From the NCBI GenBank assembly GCA_020850535.1, contig JADZEM010000118.1, positions 62,001-126,000 on the forward strand: a stretch of 64,000 bases of DNA, given 5' to 3'. Under the pieces are notes generated by a model, which was not told where the DNA came from, did not search any database, and was given only the letters and a program-made list of their open reading frames with translations. The position numbers and the translations under genes were made by a program. Shown one piece after another: positions 24,880 to 39,282 of the stretch; positions within the stretch are counted from its first letter, which is position 1, and the number at the start of each line of letters is the position of its first letter. The DNA is from Chloroflexota bacterium (GTDB lineage Bacteria; Chloroflexota; UBA6077; JACCZL01).

Positions 24880-25096
24880 CAGGGCGATTGCATGTTCATT
24901 GGTGTCCCCGAAGCATCATGGAACGGGCGGTCGGGGACTGAAGTCCCCGCCTACCGTCACGCCGTCGCTGCGCGACGGCCGTCGGGAACGGCAGGCACTG
25001 GTGCGACTGGAGCGTCGCGCAGCGACTGCATGCGTGTAGGCGGGGCTTTCAAGCCCCGACGCCGCCGCACGACGCGCTCAACATACGATTGCACTG
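24880..25096 (+). mobile_element. MITE-like element, copy 1 (217 bp)
   Basis: Begins CAGGGCGATTGCATGTT and ends AACATACGATTGCACTG, a decayed inverted copy of the start. Inside are two hairpins, CGGGGACTGAAGTCCCCG and CGGGGCTTTCAAGCCCCG, flanked inward by CGCCTAC/GTAGGCG, around an 81-bp palindrome-rich core (24955-25035). It has the same length as copies 3 and 4. No target duplication is visible. It codes for nothing convincing. Confidence 0.85.
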
Positions 25097-25106
25097 GTAG
25101 CAGCAT

Positions 25107-25306
25107 CAGGGCGATTGCATGTTCATTGGTGTCCCCGAAGCATCATGGAACGGGCGGTCGGGGACTGAAGTCCCCGCCTACAGTCACGCCGTCGGGCACG
25201 GCAGGCACTGGTGCGACTGGAGCGTCGCGCAGCGACTGCAGGATCGTAGGCGGGGCTTTCAAGCCCCGACGCGGCGGCACGACGACATCAACATGCAACC
25301 TGCTCG
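25107..25306 (+). mobile_element. MITE-like element, copy 2 (about 200 bp, internally deleted)
   Basis: Same orientation as copy 1 and exactly 10 bp after it. The core lacks 17 bp between two CCGTCG direct repeats, probably a replication slip. The right end is intact to AACATGCAA (25290-25298) and then diverges, so its terminal 8 bases are lost. Arms are nearly identical to copy 1. Confidence 0.82.
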
Positions 25307-29114: not shown

Positions 29115-29738
29115 ATGGGAAGCATGTTCGGCAAGAAGTCTGAAGAATCCGAGTGGACTCGCTTCTCGCGGGCGCTCGGTGGCGCACCGGCTGCGCCAGA
29201 TGCCGCGCCGGCCGATGGCCCGGCCGAGCCAGAGACGATGGTGCAGATCCCGCCGACCGCGCCAGAGGTGTATCAGCCGCCGGTCGCGCAGGCACCGCCT
29301 GCACCGACGATCCAGCAGGCGCCGTCGCCCGACCCGGAGCCGGCCGCTCCTGCCTACACGCCGCCGCCTGCGCCGATCAACGCCCCGCTGAGCCGCATGC
29401 CGGACCTCGAACGTGGCGAGACGGTCATCGGCGAGGGCGCCAGCGTCGAGGGCGCGGTCCGCTCCGACCGCTCCATCCGCATCCGTGGCAACGTTCAGGG
29501 TGAGGTCGAGAGCAAGCAGCGCGTCACCGTCGAAGAGTCGGCGCAGGTGCAGGCGCGAATCTCAGGCGAGCACGTGACGGTCCTGGGCGAAGTCAACGGG
29601 GCCATCGACTGCACGGGCCGCCTGGAGATCGCTTCGAGCGGCAAGGTGACCGGCGAGGTGACTGCTGGCACCCTGGTGATTCAGGAAGGCGCGTTCTTCG
29701 AGGGCCAGTTGAAAATGACCGGTCCGCAGCGCGACTAG
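29115..29738 (+). CDS. Bactofilin (polymer-forming cytoskeletal protein)
   Basis: A 207-residue protein. The first 95 residues are a disordered Pro/Ala/Gln-rich tail. Residues about 98-200 form the bactofilin right-handed beta-helix with its regular Gly/Val/Ile spacing (GETVIGEGASVEGAVRSD, IRIRGNVQGEVES, VTVLGEVNGAI, LEIASSGKVTGEV). Bactofilins polymerise without nucleotide on the inner membrane and help shape or wall placement. The N-terminus MGSMFGKKSEE may touch the membrane. It has its own promoter and appears to stand alone; a MITE-like element follows 38 bp downstream. Confidence 0.92.
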   Translation: MGSMFGKKSEESEWTRFSRALGGAPAAPDAAPADGPAEPETMVQIPPTAPEVYQPPVAQAPPAPTIQQAPSPDPEPAAPAYTPPPAPINAPLSRMPDLERGETVIGEGASVEGAVRSDRSIRIRGNVQGEVESKQRVTVEESAQVQARISGEHVTVLGEVNGAIDCTGRLEIASSGKVTGEVTAGTLVIQEGAFFEGQLKMTGPQRD

Positions 29739-29766: not shown

Positions 29767-30003
29767 CGCTGCTGCCCAGGGCGATTGCCTGTTCATTGGT
29801 GTCCCCGAAGCATCAGGGAACGGGCGGTCGGGGACTGAAGTCCCCGCCTACACGCATGCAGTCGCTGCGCGACGCTCCAGCCGCACCAGTGCCTGCCGTT
29901 CCCGACGGCCGTCGCGCAGCGACTGCAGGATGGTAGGCGGGGCTTTCAAGCCCCGACGCGGCGGCACGACGACATCAACATGCAATCGCCCTGCGCTGCT
30001 GCC
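29767..30003 (+). mobile_element. MITE-like element, copy 3 with 10-bp target duplication
   Basis: The 217-bp element is 29777-29993, from CAGGGCGATTGCCTGTT to AACATGCAATCGCCCTG (16 of 17 bases complementary). CGCTGCTGCC directly flanks both sides (29767-29776 and 29994-30003), a clear target-site duplication. The arms match copies 1 and 2 in the same orientation, but the 81-bp core (29852-29932) is the reverse complement of the copy 1 core. Confidence 0.92.
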
Positions 30004-39045: not shown

Positions 39046-39282
39046 CCTATCCAGCCAGGGCGATTGCACGTTGAGCTTGCCGTGCAGCGTGGTCGGGGCT
39101 TGAAAGCCCCGCCTACCATCCTGCAGTCGCTTCGCGACGCTCCAGTCTCGCCCGTCGATGCTCTGCCCGGCGTCCGTCGCGCAGCGACGGAATGACTGTA
39201 GGCGGGGGTTTCAATCCCCGACTGCGCGTTTCACGATGATATGGGAACACCGACGAACGTGCAATCGCCCGGCCTATCCAGG
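39046..39282 (-). mobile_element. MITE-like element, copy 4 with near-perfect target duplication
   Basis: The 217-bp element (39056-39272) has ends CAGGGCGATTGCACGTT and AACGTGCAATCGCCCGG (16 of 17 complementary). The flanks CCTATCCAGC (39046-39055) and CCTATCCAGG (39273-39282) match at 9 of 10, and a longer 15-bp direct repeat (39040-39054 and 39267-39281) is shared. The arms are in the opposite direction to copies 1-3. When the whole element is flipped, its core orientation agrees with copy 1, not copy 3. It is the most diverged copy, with hairpins CGGGGCTTGAAAGCCCCG and CGGGGATTGAAACCCCCG. Confidence 0.88.

Follow-up and report, generated by a model that had tools for sequence, protein, structure and literature searches.

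Short inverted repeats can turn round the DNA that lies between them. In yeast, template switching between such repeats is reported to invert the spacer when the arms exceed 9 bp, and 9 of 10 spacer inversions were found without homogenization of the arms (Abraham and Hazkani-Covo 2021; PMC8604942). For plastid genomes, PMC12928735 cites Kim and Lee (2005) for inversions of 5–50 bp between repeats of 11–24 bp. The case described here is a known rearrangement, for which these yeast genes and plastid genomes provide the precedents, in an element of a known kind, a bacterial MITE. It lies in a 64,000-nucleotide stretch of a Chloroflexota draft genome (contig JADZEM010000118.1), hereafter the window.

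Anatomy of the Element

The window contains four copies of one element. The third is a 217-bp MITE on the plus strand (29777–29993), which starts with CAGGGCGATTGC, finishes with GCAATCGCCCTG, and is flanked by a perfect 10-bp TSD, CGCTGCTGCC, at 29767–29776 and 29994–30003 (10/10 identity). A bactofilin gene (29115–29738) precedes this insertion site. From the outside inward, the MITE is made of the terminal repeats (CAGGGCGATTGCAT), two dissimilar arms, two outward-facing GTAG-led hairpins, a 9-nt tag on either side, and a stem that encloses a 35-bp loop. Its centre forms a long, imperfect palindrome, in which hairpin, tag, and stem (14 to 18 bp) lead up to the loop and recur in mirror image beyond it. 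Pattern and repeat searches placed the left subterminal hairpin of copy 3, GTCGGGGACTGAAGTCCCCGCCTAC, at 29827–29851 (minus strand) and the right one, GTAGGCGGGGCTTTCAAGCCCCGAC, at 29933–29957 (plus strand). As had been annotated initially, nested inverted repeats bound the core: CCCCGCCTAC ends at 29851 and GTAGGCGGGG starts at 29933, leaving a core of 81 bp at exactly 29852–29932. The stem, generally 14 bp long, reaches 18 bp in copy 3, where TGCAGTCGCTGCGCGACG (29857–29874, plus strand) and CGTCGCGCAGCGACTGCA (29910–29927, minus strand) form a perfect inverted repeat (I8) round the loop, the breakpoint interval considered below. Folded as a single strand, copy 3 reaches −76.9 kcal/mol (z = −8.2 against shuffles).

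Copy 1 (24880–25096, plus strand, right end approximate) is the first unit of a tandem dimer and has a forward core (24955–25035) with an atypical right tag. Copy 2 (25107–25294, plus strand) is also forward, with a 64-bp core and a degenerate right end, and copy 4 (39056–39272) lies as a whole on the minus strand; read in reverse, its core agrees with that of copy 1 (62/81 direct vs. 44/81 reverse). The initial view that copies 1, 2, and 4 have one core orientation in common therefore holds, with the reservation that 17 bp of one stem are missing from copy 2. Direct repeats of CCGTCG border this gap (25182–25245), a pattern such as slippage at a hairpin leaves when it deletes DNA. An Rfam scan of the window returned only a tRNA.

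An ISAs1-Type MITE Family

Dozens of copies have terminal inverted repeats beginning with CAGGGCGATTGCATG at either end, and some 25 monomers, as well as several tandem dimers of 444 bp, are flanked by exact or 9/10 TSDs of 10 bp. Together with the high copy number (about 400 hairpin matches per strand in the 7.65-Mb draft genome), these features bear out the identification of the element as a MITE; its 217 bp have no coding capacity and contain no transposase gene. Among the ISAs1-family loci of other genomes that we measured, most start with CAGGGC (CAGGGCAATCGCAT being typical) and have a 10-bp TSD. Because its terminal repeats and 10-bp TSDs match those of the measured loci, we assign the element to the ISAs1-type MITEs. 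In a scan of the PF01609 (DDE_Tnp_1) loci no matching ends were recognized, and the ISAs1 model then led to transposase fragments with matching ends in the same genome, on C136 and C187. These are broken copies only; an intact ISAs1 copy was not seen in this draft assembly, from which one may be missing. The ISAs1 copy at L189 (C136:21107–27873) is fragmented, and genes for reverse transcriptase and serine recombinase interrupt it. Membership in the RAYT-dependent REP/BIME families was ruled out, because PF01797 (Y1, TnpA-REP) had no match in the genome while the controls were positive. A 213-bp query found no copy in 40 related genomes, where one weak 31-bp match was the only one.

The family also comes in composite and shortened forms. 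Tandem dimers made of two units and a 10-bp spacer have outer 10-bp TSDs of their own (L090:13828–14271, L092:4915–5358, L106:17994–18438, L057:5310–5753, and others), and the spacers GTAGCAGCAT and GGTTCGTGACT recur at many loci; because of these outer TSDs and recurring spacers, dimers appear to transpose as units. Short elements of 108 bp, which have these terminal repeats too and are flanked by perfect TSDs of 10 bp, lie at L077:7180–7287, L091:5853–5960, and L091:16825–16932.

Extent of the Inverted Segment

The core of copy 3 (29852–29932) is turned relative to that of copy 1, as the initial annotation had recognized: 76 of its 81 positions match in reverse complement, against 47 directly. 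For the inner 36 nt, the contrast sharpens to 35/36 in reverse complement vs. 8/36 direct, and shuffled controls gave a mean of 11.6 and a maximum of 23 in 20,000. The arms of copies 1 and 3 do align directly, and almost perfectly on the left (74/76); the same had been said of the right arm, which agrees at only 51 of 60 positions.

A closer forward relative places the breakpoints more precisely. The nearest to copy 3 elsewhere in the genome, C142:34058, has the same two tags and the same left-end variant, GCCTGTT. The two differ at 28 of 217 sites, 25 of which fall inside the 35-bp loop (29875–29909, minus strand), and the spacer is thus inverted between inverted-repeat arms with its flanks unchanged. 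Re-inverting the loop alone reduces the differences to 5, whereas re-inverting the 81-bp core leaves 13. On this sequence comparison, the turned segment of copy 3 is best placed as the 35-bp loop bounded by the 18-bp perfect inverted repeat, and not as the whole 81 bp first proposed. The impression of an 81-bp extent arose because the right core end of copy 1 bears a rare tag, ATGCGT. One base separates the loop of copy 3 from the commonest forward loop (the one found in copy 1), and two bases separate it from the loop of its arm-sister C142:34058.

Both Orientations across the Genome

Both orientations recur genome-wide. When copies with both arms identified are considered, 126 are forward and 6 reversed; this count comes from 1.9 Mb (about a quarter of the genome) and targeted loci, and because some of the sampled contigs were picked for similarity to copy 3, the reversed fraction is, if anything, too high. 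By pattern search of the whole genome, the forward junction has about 250 matches and the reversed junction 12 exact ones, 9 of which proved truly reversed after their arms were read: two on C19, two on C166, and one each on C31, C118 (copy 3), C139, C195, and C222. Apparent reversed junctions on C13, C29, and C204 combine right-type arms with a left-type hairpin and hence were not counted. The copy on C31 may be the other half of that on C139 or C195, because the host repeat around GCTCGTTCCT is of one kind for all three; the total is accordingly 8–9 reversed copies at 6–7 loci among about 250 of this subtype. Some of them have intact TSDs. In a collection of genome contigs that possibly excludes the window's own genome, the reversed-junction pattern had 0 matches.

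At the contig ends of C139, C195, and C31 (L191, L192, and L121), the reversed-core element lies within another dispersed repeat, GCTCGTTCCTCGCCGCGGTCGGGATGACGG; this repeat has apparently brought the element to at least two loci.

Orientation is tied to the arms in about 95% of copies. In forward copies, the tag sets of the left and right core ends are nearly disjoint; ordinary tandem dimers are all concordant in core state, as are both dimers with two reversed units. Shuffling and conversion between copies are nonetheless rife and blur any count of events: 95 distinct loops occur among 123 forward copies. The elements at L068:5811 and L175:225, with two left-type or two right-type arms, are what a single exchange between oppositely oriented copies would be expected to give.

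Origin of the Reversed Copies

We favor the view that the spacer of the inverted repeat was inverted on rare occasions, through template switching or recombination between short repeats, and that transposition then spread the products; we give this reading a probability of about 0.7. The segment between two inverted arms would now and then be copied or recombined the other way round. A polymerase could switch templates on a hairpin that has been extruded, or a short tract could be recombined with, or converted by, a reverse-aligned copy, be it the same copy or a different one. The inverted sequence could also derive from another copy read in reverse, given that the copy 3 loop is closer to the commonest forward loop than to that of its arm-sister. 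In copy 3, the loop would have been inverted between the 18-bp stem arms, and in a second reversed type, the whole core between the 10-bp arms CCCCGCCTAC and GTAGGCGGGG. An ISAs1 transposase acting in trans would then have spread the reversed elements; in one instance, a second repeat would have been the carrier. The initial annotation had offered an invertible segment, a by-product of cruciform or template-switch events, and a part of the transposition mechanism; a by-product of template switching or recombination fits best, and nothing links the inversion to transposition itself.

The breakpoints vary between copies. For the 131-bp centre of copy 3, a loop-only inversion requires 2 differences vs. 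5 for the whole core, whereas C31 and C166:20171 are explained with 2–3 differences by whole-core inversion vs. 6–7 by loop-only inversion; the C19 pair is ambiguous between the two. Variable as they are, the breakpoints always lie in inverted-repeat arms some 10 to 18 bp long. This pattern disfavors a site-specific recombinase and favors template switching or recombination between short repeats. The strong fold of the copy 3 strand and the elements with two like arms at L068:5811 and L175:225 also speak for the preferred reading. Stem arms within forward copies show no homogenization (2224 matches vs. 2226 expected). This absence counts against template switching, which predicts homogenized arms, a frequent but not strictly required companion of the inversion. 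Because the breakpoint fits differ and three of the four loop alleles of reversed copies also occur unchanged in forward ones, at least two inversion events are favored.

Fewer events plus spread are conceivable because a single loop group, to which only 33 of 122 forward copies belong, takes in every reversed loop for which both arms are known. In its strictest form, this view puts one ancestral whole-core inversion at the root of a reversed sublineage, which transposition would have multiplied; the differences among reversed copies, including the tags of copy 3, would stem from conversion by forward copies at a later stage. Copy 3 and the C19 pair do have the left-arm variant CATCAGGG and the tag ACGCATGCA in common, and the concordance of both dimers with two reversed units also speaks for common descent. 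However, CATCAGGG occurs in forward copies too, the reversed copies span at least two arm haplotypes, and the loop-only fit of copy 3 is at odds with the whole-core fit of C31 and C166:20171. With conversion between copies so rife, one event with later conversion is conceivable, and we regard the single ancestral inversion as an unlikely origin that nevertheless retains appreciable weight. As for copy 3 being a lone ancient rearrangement, which the initial annotation had envisaged, the presence of both orientations at several loci speaks against it.

That inversion of loop and core is recurrent and still ongoing at single loci, giving an orientation polymorphism within the population, appears very doubtful. 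An artefact or chimera of assembly, also raised at the outset, would be a natural concern in a repeat-rich draft of 227 contigs, where many copies are located at the ends of contigs and three of the reversed ones break off within the core because the contig stops there. Yet tiling with the sampled forward copies at k ≥ 20 does not reproduce any of the six reversed centres for which both arms are known, which makes a de Bruijn chimera unlikely. Copy 3, with its perfect TSD, is embedded in a long contig and has unique flanks, and the same is true of the C19 and C166 pairs; we consider such an artefact highly improbable. The proposal that the core can flip in living cells through a recombinase or cruciform processing, as in a phase-variation-like switch, could appeal to the nested inverted repeats, the very stable fold, and the existence of both orientations at several loci, but is scarcely credible given the ratio of 126 forward to 6 reversed copies, the nearly disjoint forward tag sets, the lack of ordinary mixed dimers, and breakpoints that differ between copies, unlike the fixed sites of a site-specific recombinase, the strong tie between orientation and arms making a rapid switch in particular unlikely.

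Under the preferred reading of rare spacer inversion, the hundreds of paralogous copies with a palindromic centre record rare inverted-repeat spacer inversions and provide many natural replicates of a process usually observed one site at a time. They also call for caution, since what looks like a flipping module within a repeat may go back to an old copying accident that transposition has spread. In other respects, the significance of the finding is modest. A limited search, restricted to the open-access literature, found no description of a bacterial MITE with an inverted core.

Comparison with Described Systems

The MITE resembles the REP/BIME of RAYT (Y1) transposases in its GTAG-led hairpin pairs in inverted orientation and its hundreds of copies; in contrast to these, it has terminal inverted repeats, makes TSDs, and resides in a genome without a Y1 transposase. 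With ISAs1 insertion sequences and their non-autonomous derivatives it has in common CAGGGC-starting terminal repeats, the 10-bp TSD, and transposase remnants in the same genome, but unlike the insertion sequences themselves it is only 217 bp long and non-coding. The MITE has internal palindromic hairpins.

As to the rearrangement, the plastid hairpin-loop inversions, as cited in PMC12928735, likewise concern segments present in both orientations, and their range of 5–50 bp covers the 35-bp loop; they affect intergenic loci compared between species, whereas here paralogous copies of a mobile element are compared. The yeast inversions (PMC8604942) have spacers of a few base pairs, lie in genes, and are mixed with arm homogenization, whereas the segment turned here is a 35-bp loop, or an 81-bp core, in a multicopy transposon in which arm homogenization is undetectable. 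Both, however, involve short inverted repeats whose spacer is turned while the arms are kept, in a recurrent and reversible manner.
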